Shown here: positions 20,528-57,913 of the stretch, piece after piece | Layout: each line of letters opens with the position of its first letter | How positions within the stretch are numbered: the stretch's first letter is position 1 | Assembly (NCBI GenBank): GCA_005798335.1 | Contig: SYJV01000533.1 | Coordinates: 1 to 64,000, forward strand | Reading direction: 5' to 3' | Origin: Planctomycetaceae bacterium | GTDB lineage: Bacteria > Planctomycetota > Planctomycetia > Pirellulales > Pirellulaceae | DNA length: 64,000 nt | Program-made: the position numbers and the translations under genes | Notes under the pieces: model-generated | What the model was told of the DNA's origin: nothing | The model's input: only the letters and a program-made list of their open reading frames with translations | Database searches by the model: none

Positions 20528-21175
20528 TCAATCGAAGGGAGGAATGAAAATCCTAACACCAATATTTGTGCTGGTGCAGGAGAACTCAATTTTCACGTTT
20601 CCCTGGCACAACGCATTCAGTCCAAGGATCGGTAACAAAGTGCCATTTACGTCCATCGTATCGCCCGTCATTAAAGCGGAACGTTCAATCTCCGAAAAAT
20701 GCCTATTCCATTTCGCATAACTGATGTGCTTGCCAATTAGCGGCCTCTGGTTCAAGAATACGTCGATTCCTTTGTTACCCAAAGGTAGCCGATAGCTGTC
20801 ACGTGTTCCAGCTTGACCGTTTTCAACTCGTAGCCAAACATCCGCCAGTAATGTCGGTACCAGCGCACAGCCATCCAACCTCTGAATACGTCGAGGACTC
20901 TCTGGGTTAAACATCCATTTTCTTTCGTCGAGGCCGGATGCGCGTAAGTGAGATTCTCTCAACGTTAACGTCGAATTGCTGCCGGTATCTATTATCGCCG
21001 GAAATCGAGGCGTTTCGGAAGGCAATTCCGATCGTTCATTGGACGGAAGATACTGAGGCAACGGGCGAAGCGAAACCCAAACAATCGTTTGATACGGTCG
21101 AAGAACATATTCTTCGCCGTCGTGAACAACTTTCCGGAGTAGATTTGCACCAAATGTAAGTTCATCAAAAAGCAT
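20528..21175 (-). CDS. Retropepsin-like aspartic protease-family protein
   Basis: FPAIIDTGSNSTLTL (DTGS) and C-terminal LLPILGLNALCQGNVKIEFS; start placed at MLFDELTF. Confidence 0.65.
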   Translation of the reverse strand: MLFDELTFGANLLRKVVHDGEEYVLRPYQTIVWVSLRPLPQYLPSNERSELPSETPRFPAIIDTGSNSTLTLRESHLRASGLDERKWMFNPESPRRIQRLDGCALVPTLLADVWLRVENGQAGTRDSYRLPLGNKGIDVFLNQRPLIGKHISYAKWNRHFSEIERSALMTGDTMDVNGTLLPILGLNALCQGNVKIEFSCTSTNIGVRIFIPPFD

Positions 21176-21182
21176 TGCGCAT

Positions 21183-21791
21183 TTATCTTGTGATCGGGAA
21201 CCAGGCATCGCTAATGCTAATCTCGTCATCGTCGGGCGTCACACTGGCCACTACAAATTGATCGGACGAAAGGGACTTTTCACATTTTTCAATCAAGGTT
21301 AAATCGTTGTCCGATACGCCACATCGACCATCGCGGGTATATGCGACCCACTTGCCGAGCATGGAGCTATCGCGCAGTAACAAGGGCAAGTCGTCCCGAA
21401 ATCGTCGCTCCGCGGCCAGATAGTCATTGTTGGCAGAGACAAGGAAATCGGCGTATGAATCGCCTTTTTGGTAACAACCGCTAGCACCAACTCGTGCAGC
21501 CGCCTTCTTGTCATCCGACGTCAATCGACCGCAATGTACTGCGACCAACACGCTCGGACGGATCGAAAGAAACTCTTTCACGTGGGAAAAGTCACTTCGA
21601 TTGCATCGATCAGTTACCACACCCACAATTGAGGTGTCGTTCTGGAGGCATTTCACAGCAGATTCAATCGGATCATCAGCCGAGACCAACAACGAACGCA
21701 ATCCGAATTTCGACCAGACATAGCCTTGTTCGGCAACCGATGGAAGATCGCTAGGAACATCGTCAACAAATAGAATTGTCTTGTTCGCCAT
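21183..21791 (-). CDS. Response-regulator receiver domain with C-terminal DUF5678-like region
   Basis: KTILFVDDVPSD and VVTDRCNRSD receiver signatures; GKWVAYTRDGRCGVSDNDLTLIEKCEKS tail. Confidence 0.7.
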   Translation of the reverse strand: MANKTILFVDDVPSDLPSVAEQGYVWSKFGLRSLLVSADDPIESAVKCLQNDTSIVGVVTDRCNRSDFSHVKEFLSIRPSVLVAVHCGRLTSDDKKAAARVGASGCYQKGDSYADFLVSANNDYLAAERRFRDDLPLLLRDSSMLGKWVAYTRDGRCGVSDNDLTLIEKCEKSLSSDQFVVASVTPDDDEISISDAWFPITR

Positions 21792-21793
21792 AA

Positions 21794-21990
21794 TCAAATT
21801 GCCTCCGCGACCGGAAGTTGCAGAGTCACCTGGAAGAACTTCCCATACTCACTGTCTGCCCTAACTTTACCATAATGCTTGAGGATAATCCACTTGACAA
21901 GAAACGCCCAAACCCAACTTCTTTTCCATTTGTAGTAGACGGAGGAATCATTCGCTCGTTGAGAAGTTTCAGCAACGAAGTTGGAGCCCA
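21794..21990 (-). pseudogene. Histidine kinase C-terminal remnant (HATPase G2-box region), frameshifted and truncated
   Basis: Minus-strand frame gives AFLVKWIILKHYGKVRADSEYGKFFQVTLQLPVAEAI*, matching the HATPase C-terminus; the upstream part (LNERMIPPSTTNGKEVGFG) is in a different frame. Confidence 0.65.
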
Positions 21991-22467
21991 GCCATTGGGC
22001 CTATTCCTTTGCCAGCATTCTCTTGCCATTCACGATAGTTTCCTTGGCAATGGAATGAGGGTAGAGGAATGGCAAGGTTTTCGTTTCGGCAAGAGCCTCG
22101 ACCTTTTACTTCTCATGCCGCTTGTCGTCTTCCAGAACCAAAGCGACTTTTTTGTGAACGCCAAGCGCGGCCATTGGGCCTATTCCTTTGCCAGCATTCT
22201 CTTGCCATTCACGATAGTTTCCTTGGCAATGGAATGAGGGCAGAGGAATCGTGAGGTTTTCGTTTCGGCAAGAGCCTCGACCTTCCACTTCTCATGCCGC
22301 TTGTCGTCTTCCAGAACCAATGCGACTTTTTTGGGAACGCCAATCGCGGCCATTGGGCCTATTCCTTTGCCAGCATTCTCTTGCCATTCACGATAGTTTC
22401 CTTGGCAATGGAATGAGGGCAGAGGAATCCCGAGGTTTTCGTTTCGGCAAGAGCCTCGACCTTCCAC
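21991..22467. repeat. About 180-bp tandem repeat, roughly 2.7 copies (offsets 180 and 178 bp)
   Basis: GCCATTGGGCCTATTCCTTTGCCAGCATTCTCTTGCCATTCACGATAGTTTCC recurs at 21991, 22171 and 22349. Confidence 0.92.
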
Positions 22468-22470
22468 TTC

Positions 22471-24084
22471 TCAGTGCCGTTTGGAGCGCACATATTCGAT
22501 CAGCGAACTTACTAATTGTTCGTCGGTCGGTTGTTGTGTTTGAATCGCTGCGGGCCAGCCGACGCATTCGAGTTGGTTGGAAATCTCGGGGCTAAAACTA
22601 ATCGGGCGAAGAGATTGAAAATAAGCCCGAAAAACCGTCGCACATGTTCTGGCGATCAGTGGACTGGTGATTGTGATCCACTGAATGCGATTTTTATCGA
22701 TTAACTCCAGAATGTGTGTGGGCACTTCGCCAACGGGTCGACTGCGATACGACACGACAGAGTCCACACGCGCACCTTTGTCAGACAGGCCGTCGACCAG
22801 CGCCGGTTGACTCTGATCAGCGAGAATCGACAACCACTGTTGACCAGCGATCGAAGTAGCAAGTTCGTTGACTAACCCCGCAGCCCCAAAATGTTGCGGA
22901 ACGATGTCGGCTCGCAGTCCGAATCGCAACAAGCGCTCAGCCGTTTTCGATCCAACCGCGGCAATCGTACAACCAGAAAAGACTCTCGCGTCCAAACTTA
23001 GCAGGGTGAGGCGATTAAAAAAGGCTTCCACTCCATTAGCGCTGGAAAAAGTGATGCCCGAGTAACATCCTTTAGATAGTCGATCGATACAATGATCGAG
23101 ATTGGAGAAATCATCGATAGGATCGATGCGAGTCATCGGTTGGCAATACACATCTGCACCCAGTGCGCGAAGCGATTCGGCAAGCTGATCTGCTTGCGAA
23201 ACGGGGCGCGTCACTAGTACGCCGACGCCTCGAAGGGGACGATTGGAGTACCAATCATATTGCTCTCCAAGTCCCGCGACTTGGCCAACAACAACAATAA
23301 TCGGCGGTCTCAGGCCGGCTCTGAGTCGCGCGGCGACCTCGCCTAACGAACAGCGAAACACTAATTGGTCTGACCACGAGCAGCGACGAATCACCGCTGC
23401 TGGCATGGAATCGGGCATACCTGCCTGAATCAATTGCTCTGTCCAATGTTCCGCAGAAGTAACGCCCATGTAAAAAACGAGCGTTCCTGGAAATTTGGCC
23501 AGCGAGATCCAATCGATCGGTTGTGGTGTTCCATCCTGCTGTTGGCCAGTGATGAAAGCAACTGCGGAAGCATGGTGGCGATGGGTTAAAGGTATTCCGA
23601 CGTAGCTTGCCGCCGCCAGGGCTGCGGTGATTCCAGGAACAACTTCAAATGGAATCCCGCAGTTGACCAACACTTCTAATTCGTCGGCAGTTCGCGCAAA
23701 AACTGCCGGATCGCCTCCTTTGAGCCGCACCACGTGCTTGCCTGCTTGGGCCAAATCGACTAAGCGAGCATTAATTTCGTCCTGGGTCCACATTTTCCCA
23801 GTACCATGTTTGCCGACCGACACCCACTCGGCTTGGGGTGCGTGCCGGAGTAGCTGTTCGTTTGCAAGCGCATCGTACAGGACAATATCAGCTTGACGAA
23901 GTAATTCCACGCCACGAATCGTGATCAATCCTGGATCACCTGGCCCGGCACCAACCAAGCTGACACGGCCCGACTTGTTGTGGGTAGAAGATGTTTTTGG
24001 GCCTAAAGAAAAAGGTGACTGGACAGAAAGTCTGTCATCGGGCATGATATGCGGTTCCAACAAGCGTCCAAAATGGTGGATCAC
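22471..24084 (-). CDS. cobA-hemD: Fused uroporphyrinogen-III C-methyltransferase / uroporphyrinogen-III synthase
   Basis: VSLVGAGPGDPGLITIRGVELLRQADIVLYDAL and VRLKGGDPAVFAR (SUMT); C-terminal GVLVTRPVSQADQLAESLRALGADV (HemD). Confidence 0.92.
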   Translation of the reverse strand: MIHHFGRLLEPHIMPDDRLSVQSPFSLGPKTSSTHNKSGRVSLVGAGPGDPGLITIRGVELLRQADIVLYDALANEQLLRHAPQAEWVSVGKHGTGKMWTQDEINARLVDLAQAGKHVVRLKGGDPAVFARTADELEVLVNCGIPFEVVPGITAALAAASYVGIPLTHRHHASAVAFITGQQQDGTPQPIDWISLAKFPGTLVFYMGVTSAEHWTEQLIQAGMPDSMPAAVIRRCSWSDQLVFRCSLGEVAARLRAGLRPPIIVVVGQVAGLGEQYDWYSNRPLRGVGVLVTRPVSQADQLAESLRALGADVYCQPMTRIDPIDDFSNLDHCIDRLSKGCYSGITFSSANGVEAFFNRLTLLSLDARVFSGCTIAAVGSKTAERLLRFGLRADIVPQHFGAAGLVNELATSIAGQQWLSILADQSQPALVDGLSDKGARVDSVVSYRSRPVGEVPTHILELIDKNRIQWITITSPLIARTCATVFRAYFQSLRPISFSPEISNQLECVGWPAAIQTQQPTDEQLVSSLIEYVRSKRH

Positions 24085-56259: not shown

Positions 56260-57057
56260 TTAGCCGGTTACGAGATTCTCGAGCTTCTCCAGGCGATGTG
56301 CGAATTCCGCCAGCATTGATCGCAGGCCGGCAACTTCCTCGCGCAGTGCGACGATTTCCGCGGCTGTTACGCTGGCTCCCATCGTCGAAGGACTTCGAGG
56401 TGCGGATGGCGAAGCAAGAGAGTGCGAGGCGCCGAGATCATCGTCTGCGTCGGTGGGATCTTCTTCGCCAGTGTGGCCAGCAAATTTGCTCTTGAGTGCG
56501 ATCAGTTCTTCCGCGAGATAAAGGTTGTGGGTGAACAACTGTCCTCGACCCGGTGGAGTGAGTGGAATCACTAGGTTACGTTCCATCAATTGCTTGATAA
56601 TTCCCTGCAGCGTTCCCAAGTCCGGGATCGGTTCAAAACGGCTGGCACGTACTCGCAAATCCCCTGCAGTTTGTTCGCCGCGCAGCAGCAACTCAGTGAT
56701 GACCGCGGCTTCAGCGCCTTTGACTCCCAGCCAGTTATATCCGTAATGGCGATACTTTGGCACGCGACCGCTGCCGTGCACTTCTGCTGCCGCGCCGATG
56801 CGTCTTAATTCCGCGAGACCATCCTCGACTTGTTCGCTGGACAAATTCATCATCGGATGGCGATTGCTCTTTTGATTGGCACCGGTGACCAACGCCGTCA
56901 ATGTCATCGGATAAGCATCAGGAGTCGTGCGCGCTTTCTCCATCAAGACCCCCAACAGCCTCCGCAGTTTGCTTGGAACGGGTTTCCAAGACGGCGCAGG
57001 TTGAGCCTGCGAGCCGCTGCTGAGGCCAGATTCTTTTTCCGACGATGAATCAGGCAT
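56260..57057 (-). CDS. YceH/DUF480-family protein
   Basis: LRRLLGVLMEKARTTPDAYPMTLTALVTGANQKSNRHPMMNLS; RGEQTAGDLRVRASRFEPIPDL; C-terminal coiled coil. Confidence 0.92.
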   Translation of the reverse strand: MPDSSSEKESGLSSGSQAQPAPSWKPVPSKLRRLLGVLMEKARTTPDAYPMTLTALVTGANQKSNRHPMMNLSSEQVEDGLAELRRIGAAAEVHGSGRVPKYRHYGYNWLGVKGAEAAVITELLLRGEQTAGDLRVRASRFEPIPDLGTLQGIIKQLMERNLVIPLTPPGRGQLFTHNLYLAEELIALKSKFAGHTGEEDPTDADDDLGASHSLASPSAPRSPSTMGASVTAAEIVALREEVAGLRSMLAEFAHRLEKLENLVTG

Positions 57058-57130
57058 GATAGGCTGCTCTTATTGAAGGATTGAATTCCGACCTTGGGCA
57101 ATCGCCGCGCGAACTCAGTTAATTGCCGGC

Positions 57131-57913
57131 TCACTGTTTGATGCGAAACATCTCTTGGTGCGGCAGCAAACTGCCTCCATCAATGTTCAGCGTTGATCCG
57201 TTAATGTAATCGCTGGCGGCGTCACAAAGAAATAACACGCCGCGAGCAATTTCTTCGGGTTTGGCGAGTCGCCCCCAAGGCAATCCCGCACCGCGCGACA
57301 TCAGTTCATTCTCGGCAAAGAATTTTCGCTCGCCCGGCGTATCGGTCCATCCAGGATGAATGATGTTGACGCGAATTCGAAACTGAGCCAATTCGACCGC
57401 GGCCGTTCGCGCCATCTGATCGACGGCGGCTTTGCCCATATTGTACGCCATCGATCCGGGAATGGCCTTGTTTGCGTGAGGTGAACTGATGCAGACCATA
57501 GAGCCGCCAGTCCCTTGGGAAATCATGATTTGGGCAGCGGCGCGAAACAAATAAAAAGGCCCCCACATGCAAACGTTAATCGTTCGTTCAAAGCCTTCCA
57601 TTTTGGCCCGATAGAACAATTCGCGATCACTGTAAGCGGCATTCGACACCGCGATATCTAATCTTCCGAAATGCTCTTTGGCCTTTGCGACTATGGCTTC
57701 CACGGCCACTTGTTGCGTCACATCCGCTACAGCGGGAATTGCCTGACCACCTTCAGCTTGAATCTGCTGGACGGTCGCGTCGGGCGACAGGATATCGTTG
57801 ACCACGATTTTCGCACCCGCGCGAGCGAGCGCTATCGCACTAGCAGCTCCGATTCCTCGCGCGGCTCCGGTAACAATGGCTACCTTATTTTCCAATCCTC
57901 GCTCAACAGTCAT
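57131..57913 (-). CDS. Short-chain dehydrogenase/reductase (SDR)
   Basis: VAIVTGAARGIGAASAIALARAGAKIV, AVSNAAYSD, AYNMGKAAVDQMART. Confidence 0.93.
   Translation of the reverse strand: MTVERGLENKVAIVTGAARGIGAASAIALARAGAKIVVNDILSPDATVQQIQAEGGQAIPAVADVTQQVAVEAIVAKAKEHFGRLDIAVSNAAYSDRELFYRAKMEGFERTINVCMWGPFYLFRAAAQIMISQGTGGSMVCISSPHANKAIPGSMAYNMGKAAVDQMARTAAVELAQFRIRVNIIHPGWTDTPGERKFFAENELMSRGAGLPWGRLAKPEEIARGVLFLCDAASDYINGSTLNIDGGSLLPHQEMFRIKQ

Follow-up and report, generated by a model that had tools for sequence, protein, structure and literature searches.

The window, that is, the whole stretch of 64,000 nucleotides that we analyzed, carries on its minus strand a gene for a receiver fused to a DUF5678-like domain, followed by a gene for a retropepsin-like protease and preceded by what is left of a sensor histidine kinase gene (Table 1). 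Both open reading frames lie at the positions given by the initial annotation, and the motifs ILFVDD, VVTDR, GKWVAY, DTGSNSTLTL, and ILGLNAL, which it had read from the letters, are all present. A GGAGG in the last codons of the kinase remnant precedes the ATG of the receiver gene, and the start of the protease, MLFDEL, is found 7 bases past the stop codon of the receiver gene. A longer protease start at 21229 finds no support in the relatives.

Table 1. Features of the receiver-DUF5678 and retropepsin-like locus (positions are those of the window).
Feature	Position	Strand	Remarks
Retropepsin-like aspartic protease gene	20528-21175	minus	215 aa, start MLFDEL; profile-based assignment
LPILGLN, second retropepsin motif (hydrophobic-hydrophobic-Gly)	20615-20635	minus	alignment A6
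Catalytic DTG within PAIIDTGSN	20981-20989	minus	D63-T64-G65 of the 215-aa form, numbered from the 21175 start; alignment A6
Receiver-DUF5678 fusion gene	21183-21791	minus	202 aa from ATG
DUF5678-like beta-beta-alpha-beta output domain	21222-21407	minus	A7 profile match, hhalign, AF2
CheY-like receiver domain	21432-21791	minus	residues 1 to ~120; AF2, Foldseek, alignments
GAF-type sensor histidine kinase remnant	21797-22000, recognisable at 21812-21904	minus	C-terminal end of HATPase domain only
179-bp tandem repeat, 2.7 copies	21991-22483	no strand	fills the site expected for the rest of the kinase gene
Uroporphyrin-type gene	22471-24084		upstream of the kinase remnant; named by sequence only

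Pfam returned zero matches for both window proteins even at E 10, and relatives were therefore required to assign the domains; NCBIfam and PADLOC gave nothing usable for the two proteins either. For the N-terminal part of the fusion, PF00072 had no match in the window protein and scored only 12.8 bits, below its cut-off, in the homologous fusion of genome G022, while the fusions of G480 and G553 (described below) pass this cut-off. The AF2 model of the receiver, made from a two-sequence alignment, reached a pLDDT of 85 with the strand and helix order of CheY, and a Foldseek search of the PDB found 264 chains at E ≤ 0.001 (best E 5.1e-6); all of the 50 matches listed out of these 264 are receiver domains or response regulators, in agreement with the receiver first suggested from the sequence. 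The acidic pair D10 and D11, the phospho-acceptor D61, and K109 are the same in the window and G022 proteins. At the Thr/Ser switch position the G022 protein has Ser and the window protein has Cys87, so the usual switch residue is missing from the window copy.

The C-terminal domain was modeled with strands at residues 148-152 and 155-160, a helix at 163-173, and a strand at 180-183. The window protein itself has no match to PF18929 (DUF5678), for which the Pfam cut-off is 23.2 bits, and the same domain is found without a receiver in relatives of the order (G066, G086, G384, and G117). The cut-off is exceeded by L074, a close relative belonging to the same subtype as the window (27.5 bits), and by L098, a bridging member (28.6 bits). 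When nine of the DUF-like domains were aligned with 26 DUF5678 copies by hhalign, the probability was 96.4 and the E-value 1.2e-9, against 0.18 for the reversed control. Within the 64 kb, the receiver-DUF5678 frame was the sole match of two HMMs, one of the DUF-like domains built without the window and G022 (E 1.7e-10) and one made from canonical DUF5678 copies (E 0.001). By these profile comparisons, the C-terminal domain is homologous to DUF5678 (PF18929); the resemblance seen in the initial annotation holds, and the outcome it had allowed for, that no DUF5678 match would be found, is contradicted. Matches of the DUF-like profile to PDB sequences were synthetic PPR repeats and were rejected, as no single stretch passed alone in the best six.

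The protease was compared with its relatives in alignment A6, in which the D and G of the DTG are invariant in 13 of 13 proteins and L181, P182, and G185 are conserved; the proteins of L077 and L081 have a residue other than T in the catalytic motif. Common to these 13 sequences, all from the order, are FPAILDTG.N...I.E.HL..W and PRLPLLGL. A protease-family HMM built without the window and G022 recovered the window protein with an E-value of 1.8e-15. The next frame in the window, at 56946-57179, was a weak match (E 0.007) and was rejected because it lacks the DTG. Aligned by hhalign to the retropepsins linked to DUF5678, the window's protease family matched over 123 columns with an E-value of 4.7e-4 (reversed control, 0.37); this 13-sequence alignment replaced an earlier comparison with three sequences, which had given a probability of 12.5. 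Against PDB sequences, the A6 profile found just three matches, all of them retroviral proteases, at marginal E-values of 0.09 to 1.2. These profiles and the DTG and LPILG motifs point to a divergent retropepsin-like protein, as had been proposed, whose putative retropepsin fold is supported by sequence comparison; the AF2 model, made from two sequences, had a pLDDT of 38.5, too low for its Foldseek result to mean anything. Thus, of the structure predictions that had been suggested for both proteins, the one for the receiver gave clear support and the one for the protease gave no usable model.

The 204-bp frame of the kinase remnant ends in FLVKWIILKHYGKVRADSEYGKFFQVTLQLPVAEAI, and its part FLVK...TLQLP is 51.6% identical over 31 aa to the C-terminus of the G022 kinase, which occupies the same position (E 0.001 when the window was searched by tblastn with the G022 kinase, and E 2e-7 by direct blastp). 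H-box, N-box, and G-box are absent upstream of the window's receiver gene, and the kinase is truly dead, as originally claimed, since its last ~31 residues are all that survive. This kinase was not found elsewhere in the window's genome, which is weak evidence since the same search also overlooked the remnant. The copies of the 179-bp repeat, which adjoins the remnant as well as the uroporphyrin-type gene (at the 3' end of the latter), are 94-95% alike and occur nowhere else in the genome; the assembly consists of 558 contigs, and an assembly fault at the repeat is a slight possibility.

A scan of the genome contigs with the window protein alone found no relative, and a two-row alignment matched only G022 in its public form, JAGQPF010000745.1 from Planctomycetales bacterium isolate HKST-UBA33. 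Altogether, four receiver-DUF5678 fusions were found, in the window, G022, G480, and G553. The window and G022 fusions are 37% identical and form one lineage; the other two have canonical domains, with E-values of 7e-11 (receiver) and 5e-8 (DUF5678) in G480, and a receiver Pfam E-value of 1e-16 and a DUF5678 score of 22.7 bits, slightly below the cut-off, in G553. The DUF and receiver subtypes differ strongly, from which we infer more than one origin for the fusions. A retropepsin gene comes next after three of the four (window, G022, and G553), which answers the neighborhood check that had been suggested. In G022, the same gene pair stands directly behind an intact 1181-aa GAF/HATPase kinase, and in G480 a 1799-aa six-GAF kinase lies directly upstream of the fusion; no adjoining kinase was seen for the G553 gene, which is on a short contig. 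The full arrangement of kinase, receiver, DUF, and retropepsin occurs in 2 of 241 genomes of the family and is rare. Other matches were discarded: the one in G804 was a chance match to the wrong strand of an unrelated gene, those in G036 and G161 were ordinary receiver proteins, and the remaining weak matches in the family-wide search of 241 genomes covered the receiver part only.

At the G480 locus, no retropepsin was detected. The gene that follows the fusion encodes a 235-aa protein (L051, 6985-7692, minus) with GHIAVYW and NCHNCVTWAVDTL, a possible His/Cys motif, and without a Pfam match; from its motifs, it is possibly a permuted NlpC/P60-like peptidase, and DUF5678 may have in it a further effector.

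To see how far DUF5678 and retropepsins keep company, we searched 392 genomes of the phylum, detecting retropepsins at DUF5678 loci with leave-one-out HMMs. A same-strand retropepsin adjoins or is fused to DUF5678 at 26 of the 35 loci examined above the cut-off, a descriptive fraction because the loci are partly non-independent, several coming from one genome. The corresponding figures were 2 of 7 for sub-threshold DUF5678 loci and 0 of 10 for receiver-only loci. For the window's own subtype in the order, 13 of 14 DUF-like loci, including the window, come with a retropepsin, which is truncated in one case. The statement of the initial annotation that the two families are often neighbors was thus correct for this phylum, and the opposite outcome, no co-occurrence, is contradicted. 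In two copies in G446, DUF5678 and the retropepsin share a single 206-aa frame (L020, 1271-1888; L060, 2391-3008), and the fusion copy that was scanned passes the Pfam cut-offs of both DUF5678 and Asp_protease_2. G086, G384, and G553 each have about four to six DUF-retropepsin paralogues.

Several variants were seen along the way. In L075 (1956-2276, minus) and L077 (1948-2271, minus), a small upstream protein of the EYVLVRADVYDKVKAVL type, which has no Pfam match, replaces DUF5678 before retropepsins of the window's subtype, and in L080 (1920-2396, minus) a EYVLVRADVYDKVKAVL-like stretch is fused ahead of a DUF5678-like domain. DUF5678 shares an open frame with dUTPase-like sequence directly before a retropepsin in L054 (2707-3438, plus), by fusion or read-through. 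The window's genome has a second DUF5678-like gene (L010 on G000:C413, 1453-1665, plus), beside which no retropepsin was found.

We propose, with a probability of roughly 0.55, that the window locus is a decayed three-gene signaling operon in which the receiver-DUF5678 protein phospho-gates the retropepsin. The ancestral operon would have had the order sensor histidine kinase, receiver-DUF5678 response regulator, and retropepsin-like protease, and its basic unit would be a widespread two-gene module, a DUF5678 protein encoded just ahead of, or fused to, a retropepsin, which DUF5678 most likely binds as a regulatory subunit. Where a receiver is joined to DUF5678, phosphorylation of Asp61 would alter the contact between DUF5678 and the protease, and the altered contact would switch proteolysis on or off without transcription. 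The conserved order, the tight spacing, and the fusions within one frame point to a direct action of DUF5678 on the protease, and the addition of receivers to DUF5678 suggests that this action can be switched by phosphorylation. The domains, gene order, recurrence, fusions, and kinase remnant were observed directly, and the ‘phospho-controlled aspartic-protease module’ of the initial annotation is the best reading, in which the physical binding, the phosphotransfer and phospho-control, the catalysis, and the direction of control are inferred. Against this mechanism we count Cys87 and the lost kinase in the window, the G480 locus without a detected retropepsin, the rarity of the arrangement, and the unmodeled protease fold. 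With the kinase lost and the other two genes intact, the remaining pair may now be an orphan, be fed by another phosphodonor, or stand at the start of decay. In a wider form, which we put forward tentatively and at slightly under even odds, DUF5678 would serve bacterial retropepsins generally as a regulatory subunit, and bacteria would have fused it more than once to a receiver, which would give a two-component kinase direct control over the gating of a retrovirus-type protease.

The window copy could also be merely decaying, as a horizontally gained operon whose kinase was deleted and whose two other genes are free of selection. The cut of the kinase beside a local tandem repeat, the Cys at the switch position, the absence of the pair from all 14 genomes searched in the rest of the genus, and the GC content of the protease gene (47.1%, versus 53-55% in its neighbors) all point this way; yet both frames are intact over 1.25 kb and retain DTG, LPILG, D61, and K109, and we regard this explanation as rather unlikely. 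Less probable still is a toxin-antitoxin or defense-like pair, in which DUF5678 would restrain a potentially harmful retropepsin effector and the receiver fusion would let a sensor release it. Short two-gene units, often overlapping and with the DUF first, a patchy distribution with several paralogues per genome, and the partner swap in L075 and L077 would suit such a pair, whereas one-chain DUF-retropepsin fusions would be unusual for it, and apart from very weak PADLOC candidate matches for the fused form (E 0.003), no toxin, antitoxin, or defense family was matched.

Instead of inhibiting the protease, DUF5678 might deliver substrates to it as an adaptor; the phosphorylated receiver would then hand a target protein to the retropepsin, by analogy with RssB and ClpXP. 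Response regulators are known as protease adaptors, as set out for RssB, sigma S, and ClpXP (PMC4428439, PMC7226468), and G480 suggests that a receiver-DUF5678 protein may serve a different effector, but no conserved third gene presents itself as a possible target, and we consider the adaptor role improbable and the least favored of these explanations.

DUF5678 has no known function, and its recurrent neighborhood together with the single-chain and receiver fusions amounts to a specific, testable proposal for its role. If the phospho-gating reading is true, retropepsins join the short list of proteases under direct two-component control, and the output is post-translational and of a kind undescribed in the literature searched. 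The G022 operon, as the intact form with its kinase, is a better functional model than the window pair, and for experiments G022 and G553, the latter with canonical domains, are to be preferred to the window copy. In the literature searched, neither the DUF5678-retropepsin pair nor its receiver variant is described, and planctomycetes and retropepsins do not appear together; as coverage was partial, this absence is no proof of novelty. There, DUF5678 is named only in work that, by title and abstract, concerns an unrelated subject, and a retropepsin and a response regulator meet only in work on Vibrio, where the regulator governs the genes of another family of retropepsins.

Among known systems, RloA and RimB of Pseudomonas and APRc of Rickettsia are likewise bacterial retropepsin-like enzymes with a DTG (PMC12239564, PMC4140852). 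The Rlo enzymes differ from the window protein in having signal peptides and belonging to the rlo operon, and DUF5678 is unmentioned in the Rlo paper (PMC12239564). RssB and CpdR, which work with ClpXP, resemble the proposed system in that a receiver controls proteolysis post-translationally; there, an AAA+ serine protease is served by adaptors, whereas here an aspartic retropepsin would be paired with DUF5678. SpoIIGA of Bacillus is a signal-controlled bacterial aspartic protease that sits in the membrane and is triggered by a secreted protein. It shares with the window the use of an aspartic protease in signaling and has neither a receiver nor DUF5678. With the pairs of DUF5678 (PF18929) and clan AA retropepsins (PF13650, PF13975, PF00077, TIGR03698), the window shares gene order, strand, a homologous DUF, and the two protease motifs; its divergent protease escapes Pfam, and to the pair it adds a receiver before DUF5678 and an upstream kinase.
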